Shown piece by piece: positions 7,628 through 36,038 of a stretch of DNA of 36,962 nucleotides (within the stretch, counting starts at the first letter, position 1; every line of letters starts with the position of its first letter). Source of the DNA: Patescibacteria group bacterium. Its GTDB lineage: Bacteria > Patescibacteriota > Minisyncoccia > Phycocordibacterales > Phycocordibacteraceae. A program made the position numbers and the translations under genes. The notes below the pieces were generated by a model. The model was not told the origin of the DNA, ran no database searches, and saw nothing but the letters and a program-made list of their open reading frames with translations. Location: assembly GCA_018826905.1 (NCBI GenBank), contig JAHJYC010000003.1, positions 1 to 36,962 of the forward strand, read 5' to 3'.

Positions 7628-7765
7628 ATGCCTAAGCGCACCTACCAACCAAAAAAGAGGAAGCGAGCCCGCACACACGGATTCCGCGCCCGCACCGCTA
7701 CCTCAACAGGTCGCAAGGTCCTTTTGCGCCGCCGCCGTAAGGGTCGCGCAAAGCTCACTGTATAA
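7628..7765 (+). CDS. rpmH: Large ribosomal subunit protein bL34
   Basis: The 45-residue protein starting [20 protein letters not shown] and continuing through ATSTGRKVL and RRRRKGR is unmistakable bL34. The ATG at 7628 is the family start. The reading frame happens to stay open far upstream through antisense dnaA, but that extension is spurious. It overlaps the rnpA start by one base (TAATG), so the two are translationally coupled, and it is divergent from dnaA, as in most bacterial origin regions. Confidence 0.97.
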
Positions 7766-8082
7766 TGCTGCCACGTAACATGCGCCTCTCTCGGGCGCAT
7801 TTTGCGCCCTCAGGACCTGAAAAAAGGCTTGCGAGCCCCCATTTTTCCGTATCTATACGAGACACCAGCGGCCCCGGGGGCTGTGCCGTTGTGGTATCTA
7901 AAAAGGTAGCTCGTTTTGCAGTTAGTAGACATCTGTTGAAGCGTCGGGTGCTTGTTGTGGTGCGGCCATGGTGTAAAAGGTCTGTTGCTCTCGTTGTCTA
8001 CGCTCGTCCCGGAGCACCCACGCTCCCATTCGGTGTCTTACAAGAAGAACTCTCTTCCCTTCTCGCTCGCGCGCTTGGGTAA
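7765..8082 (+). CDS. rnpA: Ribonuclease P protein component
   Basis: RnpA is the basic protein cofactor that helps the RNase P ribozyme cleave tRNA 5' leaders. The 105-residue protein has the N-terminal MRLSRAHF segment and the signature block VVSKKVARFAVSRHLLKRRV, matching the family RNR helix (normally A-V-x-R-N-x-x-K-R). The usual Asn is His in this copy. The start overlaps the rpmH stop (TAATG), and yidC follows 19 nt later. Its presence matters because the tRNA genes of this window appear to have almost no 5' leader. The RNase P RNA gene was not found here. Confidence 0.9.
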   Translation: MLPRNMRLSRAHFAPSGPEKRLASPHFSVSIRDTSGPGGCAVVVSKKVARFAVSRHLLKRRVLVVVRPWCKRSVALVVYARPGAPTLPFGVLQEELSSLLARALG

Positions 8083-30923: not shown

Positions 30924-30968
30924 CACAAAACCCCGTATTTGCGGGGTTTTGTGTGTTTCATGTGGAAC
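30909..30968. terminator. 27-bp perfect hairpin at the cca 3' end (bidirectional terminator)
   Basis: Bases 30909-30935 are the exact reverse complement of 30942-30968, with a 6-nt loop (TATTTG). The inner part (CAAAACCCCG / CGGGGTTTTG) is a standard terminator stem with A and T tracts. The outer part carries a parS-like 16-mer in each arm. The stem reaches the cca stop codon (30968-30970) and also faces transcripts coming from the plus strand. Confidence 0.9.
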
Positions 30969-30969
30969 T
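30954..30969. promoter_or_regulatory. parS-like site, right hairpin arm (14/16)
   Basis: TGTTTCATGTGGAACT is the mirror copy of the left-arm site. Read on the minus strand it is AGTTCCACATGAAACA, two mismatches from the ParB consensus. It is not independent of the left arm, because the arms are complementary. Confidence 0.4.
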
Positions 30970-32431
30970 ACCCTACGTGGTGTTTGGACAATATATCCCT
31001 TATTTCCTGCTCCTCTGCTACTTCCCGGCTCTTTTTGCCTGATTCGCCTAACTTCTTAAGGTCTTCCTCTGGCAGTTGAAGCAGTTCCTTTGTTCTGCTG
31101 TCTAGGTACTCAACCGTGTTCCTTTTGGGGTCCTCAAGGACTTCTTCAAGAAGCGCGTGCAATACATATCCAATTTGGCGTCCCGGTTTCACATGGAACA
31201 CATCCATAATGTGCTCGCCATCAGTTTTAAGCATTCCTACTGATATAGGGTCTCGTAGTGCCTCTTCCACCATTGCTTTATATCTGCGGAATCTAAAAGG
31301 TTGTTCCTTCGGTCTCCCTGTTCCAATGCGATCGCAAATACGGAGATTAAGAAGTTCCCAAATGTTCTCTTGGCCGACATTTCTAATCATCCTGCGTACT
31401 GCTGAGAGGGTAATCTGGTCAGGGTCAGAGAAGAACATGTGCCAACGGACCAGTTTTGTTACTTTCTCAATCGTTTCGCGTGAAAACCGTAACTCCTCAA
31501 GGGCCTTTTTGGTAACGCGCGCACCCACAACCTCATGGCCGTGGAAGGTCCAGTCCTTCTTTTCGTCAGACCAGCGCCTAGTTTCTGGCTTAGATACGTC
31601 ATGATAAAGGGCAGCAAGACGGAGATCTAGGTCCCATTCTTTGTCTGCTGCGTGCTGCAGGGCACGCATAAGGTGCCCAAACACGTCGTAGCTATGGGCT
31701 TGGTTCTGATCTATGCCAATACCCTTAGTGAGTTCCGGAGCAATGTACTGAAGAAGACCTAGTTGCTGACACAGCACAAGGGCCATCATTGGTTGGGGAG
31801 ATAGAATGATCTTTACGAACTCGTCGCGGATCCTTTCACGTGAAATGTGCTCCAGATTAGGCCCTTTCTCCTTAATGGCAGCCGCCGTGTCGGTATCTAG
31901 AGCAAACTCCAGCTCTGCCACAAGGCGAACGGCTCGCATAAGGCGAAGCGCATCCTCCTCAAAGCGCTCAGAAGCAGTTCCTACGGTGCGTAGAACACGC
32001 GATTCAATGTCCTTTTGTCCTTTATAAGGGTCAACAATCTGTCCTTTAGAATCATCAAGGGCAATGGCGTTTATGGTGAAATCGCGCCGCGCGAGATCTT
32101 CTTCAAGGTTGTCCCCAAAACTGACAGCATCTGGACGACGCTTGTCTGAGTACCCGGATTCGGTGCGATAGGGAGTAACCTCAATAACAGCAAGAAGGGG
32201 ATTCTCGCTCCCAGTCTTTATGCCAACGGTCCCAAAGTCGTTTTCGTAGAAAGAATCTGGGAATAAGCCCTGAATATCCTCAGGCTTCGCGTTTGTTGTG
32301 ACGTCCCAGTCTTTCGGAGTACGCCCGATGAGCAGATCTCGCACACAACCACCTACTAGATACGCTTCATGGCCTGCGGTGCGGAGAATATCTGTAACAG
32401 CGGTTACTTCCTCGGGTATTCTGAATTGCAT
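30968..32431 (-). CDS. cca: CCA-adding enzyme (tRNA nucleotidyltransferase) with HD domain
   Basis: This 487-residue class II nucleotidyltransferase adds the 3' CCA to tRNAs. The head domain shows VGGCVRDLLIGRTPKDWDVTT (with the catalytic DWD pair), RRDFTINAIAL and ERIRDEFVKIIL. An HD phosphohydrolase-like domain (about 240-330) has HSYDVFGHLMRAL and LAALYHDVSKPETRRW with the His-Asp pair. Length and layout match CCA enzymes of the bacterial HD type. All four tRNA genes of this window lack encoded CCA, so the enzyme is essential here. It is divergent from tRNA-Arg, and it ends in the long parS-like hairpin. Three weaker parS-like words fall inside its coding sequence. Confidence 0.95.
   Translation of the reverse strand: MQFRIPEEVTAVTDILRTAGHEAYLVGGCVRDLLIGRTPKDWDVTTNAKPEDIQGLFPDSFYENDFGTVGIKTGSENPLLAVIEVTPYRTESGYSDKRRPDAVSFGDNLEEDLARRDFTINAIALDDSKGQIVDPYKGQKDIESRVLRTVGTASERFEEDALRLMRAVRLVAELEFALDTDTAAAIKEKGPNLEHISRERIRDEFVKIILSPQPMMALVLCQQLGLLQYIAPELTKGIGIDQNQAHSYDVFGHLMRALQHAADKEWDLDLRLAALYHDVSKPETRRWSDEKKDWTFHGHEVVGARVTKKALEELRFSRETIEKVTKLVRWHMFFSDPDQITLSAVRRMIRNVGQENIWELLNLRICDRIGTGRPKEQPFRFRRYKAMVEEALRDPISVGMLKTDGEHIMDVFHVKPGRQIGYVLHALLEEVLEDPKRNTVEYLDSRTKELLQLPEEDLKKLGESGKKSREVAEEQEIRDILSKHHVG
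31185..31200. promoter_or_regulatory. parS-like site inside cca (14/16)
   Basis: GGTTTCACATGGAACA on the plus strand is TGTTCCATGTGAAACC on the other, two mismatches from the ParB consensus. It falls in codons for VFHVKPG of CCA and is independent of the hairpin arms 220 nt away. Confidence 0.4.
31836..31847. promoter_or_regulatory. parS core palindrome inside cca
   Basis: TTTCACGTGAAA is the exact 12-bp core of parS, but the outer two bases on each side do not match (12/16 overall). It encodes ISRE in CCA, so coding constraint may explain it. CGTTTCGCGTGAAAAC at 31472-31487 is a similar weak site (encodes FSRE). Confidence 0.25.
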
Positions 32432-32452: not shown

Positions 32453-32481
32453 TGGCCAATCTCCTAGCTCTGGCGTACTAT
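32453..32481 (+). promoter_or_regulatory. tRNA-Arg promoter
   Basis: TGGCCA (32453-32458), a 17-nt spacer and TACTAT (32476-32481) end 8 nt before the mature tRNA 5' end, so transcription should start at or within about 2 nt of the tRNA. Confidence 0.5.
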
Positions 32482-32491
32482 CCTAGTACGC
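32473..32491. repeat. Inverted repeat abutting tRNA-Arg
   Basis: GCGTACTA and TAGTACGC form an 8-bp inverted repeat around TCC. It covers the -10 box and includes the first two bases of the tRNA, so it could be an operator or competing stem. Confidence 0.55.
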
Positions 32492-32561
32492 TCCTGTAGT
32501 GAAATGGATATCACAACAGTCTTCGGAACTGTCGTTCCAGGTTCGAGTCCTGGCGGGAGCA
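32490..32561 (+). tRNA. tRNA-Arg (anticodon TCG)
   Basis: The acceptor stem is GCTCCTG / CGGGAGC (one G-T pair), the D stem GTGA/TCAC, the anticodon stem ACAGT/ACTGT with loop CTTCGGA, giving anticodon TCG, and the T arm CCAGG-TTCGAGT-CCTGG. The discriminator is A32561; no CCA is encoded. The lysA ATG begins one base further on. The identity Arg (CGA) follows from the 7-base loop register. Confidence 0.93.
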
Positions 32562-32562
32562 C

Positions 32563-33756
32563 ATGAGTAGCATATCGGGAATACAGTGTAAGACGCTGGT
32601 ACAAGCCGCGCGTAAGTTTGGTACTCCCGTATATGTCTACAATCAAGACAGAGTAGAAGCGCAGTGCAAGAAACTGCAGAAGCATTTTCCTGAAATAACT
32701 TTTCACTATGCAGTGAAAGCAAATGCGAATCCGGAGCTTTTACGCATCATACGAAAACAGGGAATAGGTGCTGAAGGAGTGAGTGGGGGAGAGCTTGTTG
32801 CCGCGATGAGTGCGGGGTTTAAGAAAAAGGACCTCAGCTTCACCTGCTCTAACTTAACTGAGGAAGAACTTGCAGCAGCTGTCGCCACAGGAGCGCGCGT
32901 GCATTTAGATTCTCTTACACAGCTTGAGCAGTGGGGAAGACACAAATTAGGTTCGCAGGTATCTCTTAGATTGAATCAGGGAATTGGAGCAGGGCATCAT
33001 AAGCACGTCATAACTGGGGGACCAGACAGCAAGTTTGGCATTAGCCTTTCAGATATTCCTGAAGCAAAGAGGATTGCTAAACAGTACGGCCTTGAAATTA
33101 CCGGCGTACAGCAACATATTGGATCTAATGCACTAGACGAAGCAGTGCTGCTTAAGGCTGCGGGCGTACTGCTTAAGACGGCTGAAACATTTGAGGGAAT
33201 TACGCACATTGATTTCGGCGGAGGACTTGGTGTGCCGTACAAGCCACAAGAAACAGAATTGAACCTCGTTTCTCTTGGAAAGAAGTTTTCAATGCTTATT
33301 AAAGACTTCAGAAAGAAGCACGGTGCACACATAGAATTTGCTATGGAGCCAGGGCGTTTTCTTGTTGCTCAAGCCGGATTACTTTTAGTGTCCGTAACAG
33401 ATATAAAGCATACGGAGAAGCATTGCTTTGTTGGCGTGAACTCTGGCTTCAATCACTTACTGCGCCCAGCATTGTATGACTCGTATCATCCCGTGGAGAA
33501 TGTGGTGCGCACAAGAGGGAAGAAGGCACACGTAACGATTGCTGGGAATGTGTGCGAATCAGGAGATGTGTTTGCTGCGCAGCGCACAATGTACACGCCA
33601 GAGATTGGAGACCTGCTTGCGATTACTCATGCAGGAGCGTATGGGTTCACCATGGCTAGCATGTATAACTTGCGTGTGCTTCCAAAGGAAGTGCTCGTTA
33701 CAAAAGCGAATACACTTAAAGATATCTCCTTTGATCCGAGAGAGTTTGCGCGCTAG
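32563..33756 (+). CDS. lysA: Diaminopimelate decarboxylase-like PLP enzyme (LysA)
   Basis: The 397-residue fold-type III PLP enzyme decarboxylates meso-diaminopimelate to lysine. Motifs: YAVKAN with the PLP lysine K52, CSNLTEEEL, GGPDSKFGI, HIGSN (185-189), FGGGLGVPY (PLP phosphate), EPGRFL (262-267), CESGD (331-335) and the active-site Y360 in AGAYGF. These fit DapDC better than ornithine or arginine decarboxylases, but a related specificity cannot be excluded, and other dap genes are not in the window. ATG 32563 is one base after tRNA-Arg and has no ribosome-binding site other than within the tRNA, so translation probably starts on a leaderless end created by RNase Z. Confidence 0.88.
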   Translation: MSSISGIQCKTLVQAARKFGTPVYVYNQDRVEAQCKKLQKHFPEITFHYAVKANANPELLRIIRKQGIGAEGVSGGELVAAMSAGFKKKDLSFTCSNLTEEELAAAVATGARVHLDSLTQLEQWGRHKLGSQVSLRLNQGIGAGHHKHVITGGPDSKFGISLSDIPEAKRIAKQYGLEITGVQQHIGSNALDEAVLLKAAGVLLKTAETFEGITHIDFGGGLGVPYKPQETELNLVSLGKKFSMLIKDFRKKHGAHIEFAMEPGRFLVAQAGLLLVSVTDIKHTEKHCFVGVNSGFNHLLRPALYDSYHPVENVVRTRGKKAHVTIAGNVCESGDVFAAQRTMYTPEIGDLLAITHAGAYGFTMASMYNLRVLPKEVLVTKANTLKDISFDPREFAR

Positions 33757-33800: not shown

Positions 33801-33871
33801 GCGGATATGGTTTAGTGGTAAAACGCGTCCTTGCCAAGGACGAGTCGGGAGTTCGATTCTCCCTATCCGCA
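33801..33871 (+). tRNA. tRNA-Gly (anticodon GCC)
   Basis: The acceptor stem is GCGGATA / TATCCGC. The anticodon stem CGTCC/GGACG carries the loop TTGCCAA with anticodon GCC. The T arm is CGGGA-GTTCGAT-TCTCC with the usual TTC. The discriminator is A33871 and CCA is not encoded. It is followed by a strong terminator. Confidence 0.95.
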
Positions 33872-33881
33872 CTAACTGAAA

Positions 33882-34104: not shown

Positions 34105-34175
34105 CGGGGTGTCGTATACCGGTAGTACGCCTGCTTTGGGAGCAGGTAGACGGAGTTCAATTCTCCGCACCCCGA
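34105..34175 (+). tRNA. tRNA-Pro (anticodon TGG)
   Basis: The acceptor stem is CGGGGTG / CACCCCG. The anticodon stem CCTGC/GCAGG has the loop TTTGGGA, anticodon TGG. The T arm is CGGAG-TTCAATT-CTCCG. The discriminator is A34175. CCA is not encoded; the next base on the other strand is the stop codon of the convergent protease gene. Confidence 0.95.
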
Positions 34176-35231
34176 CTACAAATCCAGTGTCTCTGCCAGT
34201 TGTGCGCCAAGTATTTCAGATTGTGCTTTGAAATCAGCAACGAGTTGTTGAGGGCTTTTTGATGCGAAGTACGCATCAAAAGAGCGTCCGGTATCAGCAC
34301 TAAAGCTACGTCTAATATGTCCGTTTGTTATAGCGCGAAGGTCTCTAGAGAAGAGTTCTCCCTGTGTACTTGAAGTGGTGATAAGGCCTATAAGCTCTGC
34401 GTCTGTGTTAACCACGCCTCCTCCAGAAGATCCGCTTTGTGCAGCAGCACTTCCTCCTAAGGACATAAGGTCAAAGGAAGTGTCCGTAAAGGTATAGCGA
34501 TCTTCAATAGAAGCAAAGACAAGTGTTGGATACAGAGACGTTGATATTTGCGCATTCGTTAGTGTTTGCGCTGGATATCCTCCAACAGATACTTCTTGAT
34601 CCAAGAATGGTTCAGAGTCTGAGAGAGGGACATGTGAGAACGAGAAGGGGAAGGTCCCGCCTGATACGGTCCCTGTTATAGCGAGCACTGCTATATCATC
34701 CTCTCCAGTTCCTCGGGGTCTTTCAAGGATAAGGGTGTCAGGGTGCTTGGCAAGCCAGTTTGATGAAATATATGCCAAAGAAGCAGTATAGGACGCGCGC
34801 GCAGGGCTTCCTGTGCGGATCACGCATTCAATCTTGTCCTTTGGAAGTGCGTCCTTAAGGACAAAGAGTTGTGCAATATGCGCATTTGTAAGAATGAGTC
34901 CACGGGAATCAAAAAGTGTTCCGGTTCCAGAGACAGAACGAAGTCTTGGGTTCTCTGAGACGCAGATGATATTAACAATAGAGGTACGGAGGCGCCCTAA
35001 CGCAAGTGCGAGTGCTTTTGAGTTATCTACTGGAGGTGTTAAGACTTCTTCTTCAATAACCTCTGGAGCTGGTGCTTCAACAACTGCAGCTGGCTGTGTA
35101 GTTGTTGGGGCAGCAAGATCCAGGAAAGGATTCGCTTGTGGTTCAACAGTTGTGTCATGACTGCCAAAGAGCACAATCAATATGAAGATAAGGAAGGCGC
35201 CTCCAATAGCCAGGCGGCCGTGGGTGGTCAT
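34176..35231 (-). CDS. Membrane-anchored trypsin-like serine protease
   Basis: The chosen ATG at 35231 (351 aa) gives a basic N-terminus followed at once by a transmembrane helix (about 8-25); a TTG at 35282 would add seventeen residues. After a Pro/Thr/Glu-rich stalk (30-70) comes a chymotrypsin-fold domain with the catalytic triad in view: His in LTNAHIAQ, Asp in GEDDIAVLAI, and Ser in AQSGSSGGGVVN, with FDLMSLGGSAA ahead of it. There is no PDZ domain, unlike HtrA. It is predicted to act outside the membrane. The stop codon abuts the 3' end of tRNA-Pro. Confidence 0.88.
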   Translation of the reverse strand: MTTHGRLAIGGAFLIFILIVLFGSHDTTVEPQANPFLDLAAPTTTQPAAVVEAPAPEVIEEEVLTPPVDNSKALALALGRLRTSIVNIICVSENPRLRSVSGTGTLFDSRGLILTNAHIAQLFVLKDALPKDKIECVIRTGSPARASYTASLAYISSNWLAKHPDTLILERPRGTGEDDIAVLAITGTVSGGTFPFSFSHVPLSDSEPFLDQEVSVGGYPAQTLTNAQISTSLYPTLVFASIEDRYTFTDTSFDLMSLGGSAAAQSGSSGGGVVNTDAELIGLITTSSTQGELFSRDLRAITNGHIRRSFSADTGRSFDAYFASKSPQQLVADFKAQSEILGAQLAETLDL

Positions 35232-35315: not shown

Positions 35316-35386
35316 GCGGGATTAGTTTAATGGTAGAACATCAGTTTTCCAAACTGAGAGCAGGAGTCCGATTCTCCTATCCCGCA
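35316..35386 (+). tRNA. tRNA-Gly (anticodon TCC)
   Basis: The acceptor stem is GCGGGAT / ATCCCGC. The anticodon stem TCAGT/ACTGA carries the loop TTTCCAA, anticodon TCC. The T arm is AGGAG-TCCGATT-CTCCT, where the usual TTC is TCC. The discriminator is A35386 and CCA is not encoded. Confidence 0.92.
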
Positions 35387-35446
35387 CACTGTAGTGCTAG
35401 TTCAAGAGACTGAGATACTTCAAATCTGTGACCGCCATCCATGCGT

Positions 35447-35452
35447 TAGAAT
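35447..35452 (+). promoter_or_regulatory. -10 (TAGAAT) of the conserved hypothetical gene
   Basis: TAGAAT ends 7 nt before ATG 35460, so the mRNA should be leaderless. The word TTAGAATAGAACC also occurs upstream of the NYN gene. Confidence 0.5.
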
Positions 35453-35459
35453 AGAACCA

Positions 35460-36038
35460 ATGGAAAGGGTGTCAGACTCCCGCAAGGAAACCGAAGAGGC
35501 AACAAAAGCCCCGGCCTTCCTGTATCACATGGTACCCGAGGATATGCGGGGCGATTCTCTGCACCCACTGAACTCACTTAAAGATGTGCACCCAGATCTG
35601 TATGTCGCAAAATCAGCGAAATACGAAGATAGGCTCCATATCATGGAGCAGTTCTTGCCAACTCTTGAAGCGGCGTGGAATGACGTGTTGCACTTTACGG
35701 CGATAGATCCTAAAGAATTAAAGGCTGCTCTGGTTGAAGCAGGTATGGAGCCAAAGGAAATGAGGTTTTATCAGGTTGATCCGTCTCTGCTCGACCCTAA
35801 AAGCACAACAGTCTATCTCTACCAAGACAAATCAAGCGAAAGTAAGATGAGTCCTGAAAGTTTTAGAGAGTATGACCCGGAAAAACTGGACGAGCATGCT
35901 GTTCTTCCAGTAGAGACAAAAGAATACTACAAAGAAATGTTTGCCAAAGGCGAGCGACCACTCATGTTCGTGGGCGTGCCACATATACTGCATAAAGGCT
36001 CAATTGATGTCTCCAATCTACCGGTTATTACTGTGTAA
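35460..36038 (+). CDS. Conserved hypothetical protein (192 aa)
   Basis: I start at ATG 35460, directly after the promoter box; a start at 35394 would run through it. The protein is soluble, without signal peptide or Cys. It has the segments FLYHMVPEDMRGDSLHPLN, HIMEQFLPTLEAAWNDVLHF, EMRFYQVDPSLLDPKSTTVY and GERPLMFVGVPHILHKGSID. The style resembles a 'group-specific protein' family found in Bacillus and other Firmicutes, which suggests horizontal gain, but I cannot confirm this by search. The VGVPHIL-HKG block is the most distinctive. Function is unknown. The kinase-like gene follows 12 nt later, probably in the same unit. Confidence 0.7.
   Translation: MERVSDSRKETEEATKAPAFLYHMVPEDMRGDSLHPLNSLKDVHPDLYVAKSAKYEDRLHIMEQFLPTLEAAWNDVLHFTAIDPKELKAALVEAGMEPKEMRFYQVDPSLLDPKSTTVYLYQDKSSESKMSPESFREYDPEKLDEHAVLPVETKEYYKEMFAKGERPLMFVGVPHILHKGSIDVSNLPVITV

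Follow-up and report, generated by a model that had tools for sequence, protein, structure and literature searches.

In the 36,962-nt stretch of a Patescibacteria group genome analysed here (the window), the diaminopimelate decarboxylase gene lysA begins directly behind a tRNA-Arg gene, with a single nucleotide between the discriminator base of the tRNA and the ATG. The best explanation, which we regard as probable though well short of certain, is that lysA is expressed from a tRNA-punctuated, leaderless or nearly leaderless mRNA, a process that would involve neither RNase Z nor any special tie to amino-acid genes. According to this explanation, tRNA-Arg and lysA would form one transcript from a promoter immediately ahead of tRNA-Arg. 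A nuclease maturing the 3′ end of the tRNA would then free the lysA mRNA with its 5′ end at the AUG or a few bases before it, and ribosomes used to leaderless mRNAs in this lineage would initiate at that AUG. Where other genes have a leaderless promoter 6-8 nt ahead of the ATG, the abutting tRNA would take its place, and both in this genome and across the family several more genes would be served by the same tRNA punctuation. We infer the co-transcription, the cleavage, the nuclease and the leaderless translation of lysA from sequence.

The tRNA-Arg/lysA junction

The genome harbouring the window comprises 0.68 Mb in 6 contigs and is 97% complete; its nearest named relatives are Patescibacteria group bacteria (UBA6241, a planktonic MAG). 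The following features surround the junction.

30968..32431, minus strand: cca, CCA-adding tRNA nucleotidyltransferase, the divergent neighbour, with a -10-like box lying 6 nt ahead of its ATG
32453..32458, plus strand: putative -35 element TGGCCA, 17 nt from the -10 element; TGG(C/T)CA is kept in G029, G013, G086 and G059
32476..32481, plus strand: putative -10 element TACTAT, 8 nt before tRNA-Arg; TA(C/G)TAT is kept in four relatives
32490..32561, plus strand: tRNA-Arg(UCG), discriminator A32561, CCA not encoded
32562..32562, plus strand: C at tRNA position 74, the sole base separating the discriminator from the lysA ATG
32563..33756, plus strand: lysA, diaminopimelate decarboxylase, 397 codons, its ATG abutting the tRNA (TIGR01048, PF02784/PF00278)
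33801..33872, plus strand: tRNA-Gly(GCC), after lysA
34105..34176, plus strand: tRNA-Pro(UGG) (ARAGORN/Rfam)
35316..35387, plus strand: tRNA-Gly(UCC), with a 214-codon GTG-start ORF 7 nt later
35394-36038, plus strand: this 214-codon ORF, GTG start, start uncertain, no Pfam match

The abutment is confirmed, in line with what an earlier note on this DNA had claimed: A32561-C-ATG is read directly, and both the tRNA and the lysA calls agree with it. The tRNA-Arg(UCG), with anticodon TCG, is placed at 32490-32562/32561 (ARAGORN, Rfam). Its acceptor stem GCTCCTG/CGGGAGC ends with base 32560, and then come the discriminator A32561, C32562 and the lysA ATG at 32563. Since C32562 represents tRNA position 74, which is near-invariant in the family, there is effectively no intergenic base between tRNA-Arg and lysA. 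LysA itself is full-length, matching TIGR01048 over residues 9-383 with 357.9 bits against a cut-off of 297.9. The ATG at 32563 is the sole usable start of the gene. The lysA frame is open upstream into tRNA-Arg without a start codon there, and no other ATG, GTG or TTG is present from the last in-frame stop, which lies inside the tRNA, to the conserved core.

We also find no separate promoter, terminator or ribosome-binding site for lysA, as the same note had stated. The only string resembling a Shine-Dalgarno (SD) sequence is GGAG at 32556-32559, located 3 nt from the ATG within the acceptor stem. No -10 box (TANNNT) occurs 4-12 nt before the lysA ATG, and a consensus scan found no promoter or terminator patterns around the junction. 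Upstream of the tRNA, the putative TACTAT -10 element would place the transcript start at about the 5′ end of tRNA-Arg; the TGGCCA-17-TACTAT pair is not called as a promoter by a generic consensus scan. Across the family, TANNNT is enriched 6-11 nt upstream of the 5′ ends of tRNAs (with peaks at 9-11 nt and also at 6-8 nt), so that tRNAs are probably transcribed with very short 5′ leaders. We count the conserved promoter-like elements upstream, together with the lack of a terminator at the junction, in favour of a common tRNA-lysA transcript.

Probable leaderless starts and recurrence of the junction in the family

TANNNT is found 6-8 nt before the ATG in 39% of 84 ORFs of this genome and in 36% of 145 ORFs of its relatives, against about 5% at other distances. 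A non-CPR control shows no TANNNT peak before the ATG, and SD cores show no peak in the larger ORF set (84 own, 145 from relatives); the SD assessment rests on this set, the count on the 35 window genes being too small to inform. Judged from this promoter spacing, the lineage looks mainly leaderless, with transcription starting at the AUG. Unlike these 36-39% of lineage genes, lysA has no promoter -10 placed for transcription to start at its start codon. At 16-40 nt from a tRNA, genes frequently come with a -10 box of their own at leaderless spacing, whereas genes lying 0-9 nt behind a tRNA have no convincing one, the sole weak match being TAGGGT inside tRNA-Ala. Because the usual leaderless promoter is missing from the abutted genes, their 5′ ends have to come from elsewhere. 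Leaderless starts look like the default of the lineage, and the leaderless lysA mRNA produced by processing that the earlier note proposed would be the simplest reading.

LysA matches of any kind are present in only 22 of 106 family genomes. Two of these, G029 and G013, have the identical 1-nt A-C-ATG junction, base for base, and their LysA proteins share 72-73% amino acid identity with that of the window. Third-codon identity among the three 1-nt species is 43-45%, that is, saturated, so the conserved 1-nt spacing does not reflect recent shared ancestry alone. In G058, G086 and G059 (LysA 63-65% identity), 3-4 nt lie between the discriminator and lysA, and the abutment is still kept in G058 and G086 although their tRNA-Arg(UCG) is quite different in sequence from that of G059 and the other relatives (L035 and L036 versus L037). 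The junction sought in related genomes thus recurs, at 1 nt or at 3-4 nt. Separation of the tRNA and lysA in relatives, which the earlier note had named as evidence against its proposal, is indeed seen in G002, G034 and G026, where other sequence or inserted genes lie between the two or the spacing is large; but the abutment is kept in the closest relatives and in three others at the same distance as G002.

A survey for other tRNA-mRNA abutments showed that 8 of the 37 tRNAs in this genome have a start codon at most 9 nt downstream.

tRNA-Arg to lysA: 1 nt
tRNA-Ala to a MazG-like gene: 2 nt
tRNA-Leu to alr: 2 nt
tRNA-Ile to a NUDIX gene: 4 nt
tRNA-Ser to a GT2 glycosyltransferase gene: 4 nt, GTG start
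tRNA-Lys to def: 9 nt
tRNA-His to mscL: 9 nt
tRNA-Gly to the 214-codon ORF: 7 nt, less sure

At the tRNA-Ala and tRNA-Leu junctions, the A of the encoded CCA doubles as the A of the ATG. Most of the abutted ORFs are real genes, and since MscL and GT2 open at the conserved N-terminus of their families, their abutting starts are genuine. Five junctions are common to this genome and G013: Ile/NUDIX, Arg/lysA and His/mscL are spaced identically, Leu/alr is at 2 nt in both, and Lys/def is at 9 and 12 nt. Further abutted genes in relatives encode DAGK, a MurD-like protein, a SpoU methylase, DUF2914, a methylpurine glycosylase, a methyltransferase, DUF192 and an endo/exonuclease. The earlier note had suggested that the arrangement ties amino-acid genes to tRNA maturation. 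Because the partner genes are so diverse, including def, mscL, NUDIX, GT2, MurD-like and others, such a special link is not supported.

Abutment is markedly more frequent in this family than in the controls. In five family genomes, 24/192 tRNAs are followed within 9 nt by the start codon of an ORF that is 100 codons or longer, compared with 1/89 control tRNAs (0/42 in four non-CPR genomes and 1/47 in a phylum-wide sample; Fisher p ~0.001), the control samples being the best-scoring tRNAs rather than complete sets. The survey covered the loci returned by the searches and the stretches around each tRNA. The distances from tRNA to start codon comprise 25 distinct cases at 0-9 nt versus 28 at 10-40 nt (p ~3e-4 against an even spread), and the abutment distances cluster at 1, 2 and 4 nt. 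Some seeming abutments were rejected because their first ATG is spurious, X082 in G004 being one: there a -10 box precedes a later ATG.

Nucleases and rival explanations

In bacteria that have RNase Z, the established cut for CCA-less tRNAs is directly after the discriminator, and it was this enzyme to which the earlier note had attributed the release of lysA. The cut position would be correct for a CCA-less tRNA such as this one. However, RNase Z (TIGR02651) is found neither in this genome nor, above the curated cut-off, in any of the 106 family genomes, while 14/14 control genomes are positive. The weak TIGR02651 matches in the family are mostly ORFs of 630-690 codons, which is the length of RNase J. 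The three PF12706 matches of this genome were considered as a hidden RNase Z and rejected, being beta-CASP/aCPSF-like (L107), a PF13483-type MBL hydrolase (L108) and, by sequence, a ComEC-like MBL (L109). A divergent MBL protein, L105 (G060:C2:173661-177350), with a weak RNase Z match (34 bits, model positions 55-287), occurs in few relatives and was likewise set aside, as it is absent from this genome. We thus consider cleavage by RNase Z highly improbable.

L107:1423-2820 encodes a 465-aa beta-CASP ribonuclease-like protein that resembles aCPSF1/TIGR03675 below the cut-off, and it may be one of the proteins that cleave RNA here.

Position 74 was examined as well. C74 is encoded in 187/192 family tRNAs, and CCA is unencoded in about two thirds or more of the family tRNAs surveyed. 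A C74-specific cut linked to the loss of RNase Z, considered in view of these counts and of the Propionibacterium acnes tRNAs that are sometimes cut between the Cs, was rejected: four mostly Bacteroidetes control genomes have C74 in 36/36 of their CCA-less tRNAs, so the near-invariant C74, being also present in non-CPR CCA-less tRNAs, does not discriminate. At the other end of the tRNA, class A RNase P RNA was not detected in this genome, though rnpA is present (PF00825, window 7765-8082). RNase P RNAs of CPR bacteria are known to be diverged and to be missed at standard thresholds (PMC8172020). The undetected RNA is probably such a diverged one, and because CPR versions escape standard thresholds we make no claim of its absence.

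Several points count against punctuation: RNase Z is not found; an RNB-family exonuclease acting as the sole tRNA 3′ maturase would destroy the linked mRNA; three relatives have other sequence or another gene between the tRNA and lysA; the control tRNAs are best-scoring samples; and the tight spacing could be plain compaction. If only compaction were at work, tRNA-Arg and lysA would form a tight operon in which 3′-5′ exonucleases make the tRNA 3′ ends, and lysA would be translated from unmatured transcripts or after random endonuclease cuts. The small, dense genome fits this, as do the RNB-family exonuclease that it encodes and the missing RNase Z; RNase R is the sole maturase of tRNA 3′ ends in Mycoplasma genitalium (PMC12320835). 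Against compaction, the distances pile up at 0-9 nt beyond what is expected from 10-40 nt (25 vs 28, p ~3e-4), the spacing is kept at saturated divergence, and a tRNA folded 2 nt upstream of the AUG should keep ribosomes from initiating on the uncut transcript. Compaction by itself therefore appears unlikely to us, though it deserves to be taken seriously.

Two further explanations are less likely still. A leaderless lysA promoter with its -10 and -35 inside the tRNA-Arg gene would be in keeping with how common leaderless promoters are in this genome, but no TANNNT lies 4-12 nt before the ATG, the region contains no promoter match, and even a weak match within a tRNA is seen only at the tRNA-Ala junctions, which makes an internal promoter very doubtful. 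Alternatively, ribosomes could be delivered by translational coupling. A 20-codon frame runs from ATG 32504 in the D-arm of the tRNA to TGA 32564-32566, overlapping the lysA ATG as ATGA, and both this ATGA overlap and the tRNA are unchanged in G029 and G013. Coupling would, however, require an intact tRNA to be translated; the alr junction reads ATGG and so has no such overlap, and a second codon beginning with A is common anyway. We give this last explanation scarcely any credence. Release of lysA by a tRNA 3′ nuclease other than RNase Z is what we continue to favour.

Relation to known systems

The arrangement resembles the tRNA punctuation of animal mitochondria, where a tRNA directly abuts the next ORF, its excision leaves a near-leaderless mRNA, and several genes per genome are concerned. 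Two differences are apparent. Here only a minority of genes is involved, most having their own leaderless promoter or another arrangement, and the mitochondrial enzyme is ELAC2, an RNase Z, whereas RNase Z is not found here. Among bacteria, thrT-tufB of E. coli is a tRNA-mRNA co-transcript in which the tRNA is likewise followed by a protein gene, but there the protein gene is preceded by a leader that contains a ribosome-binding site of its own. Features shared with the leaderless mRNAs of actinobacteria and others (Mycobacterium, Propionibacterium acnes) are the -10 box, present 6-8 nt ahead of the ATG for more than one gene in three, and the lack of an SD peak. In contrast to those mRNAs, lysA and the rest of the abutted genes would owe their 5′ ends to tRNA processing and not to transcription initiation.

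Propionibacterium acnes offers another parallel. As described in PMC3848588, it has no obvious tRNase Z homologue and many leaderless mRNAs, and an endonuclease cuts near its tRNA 3′ ends, sometimes between both Cs of CCA. It may therefore serve as a precedent for another tRNA 3′ enzyme; mRNA-releasing tRNA cuts are not described in the passages of that paper considered here. Searches of the open-licence literature yielded no account of bacterial leaderless mRNAs that derive from tRNAs.

A broader proposal, which we put forward tentatively and with somewhat more doubt than confidence, is that the lineage has lost RNase Z and that its tRNA 3′ endonuclease both matures tRNAs and generates the 5′ ends of a number of leaderless mRNAs. 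The tRNA genes would then provide ordinary protein genes with promoter and leader in one cassette, which would make this a counterpart, in bacteria, of mitochondrial punctuation. If this is true, tRNA punctuation would not be peculiar to mitochondria and could arise in bacteria once translation is mainly leaderless. These Patescibacteria would, moreover, have a missing enzyme to account for, their tRNA 3′ nuclease, with the set of junctions as the places to seek its cuts. For annotation, the proposal would mean that start codons touching tRNA genes in this lineage are to be taken as genuine.
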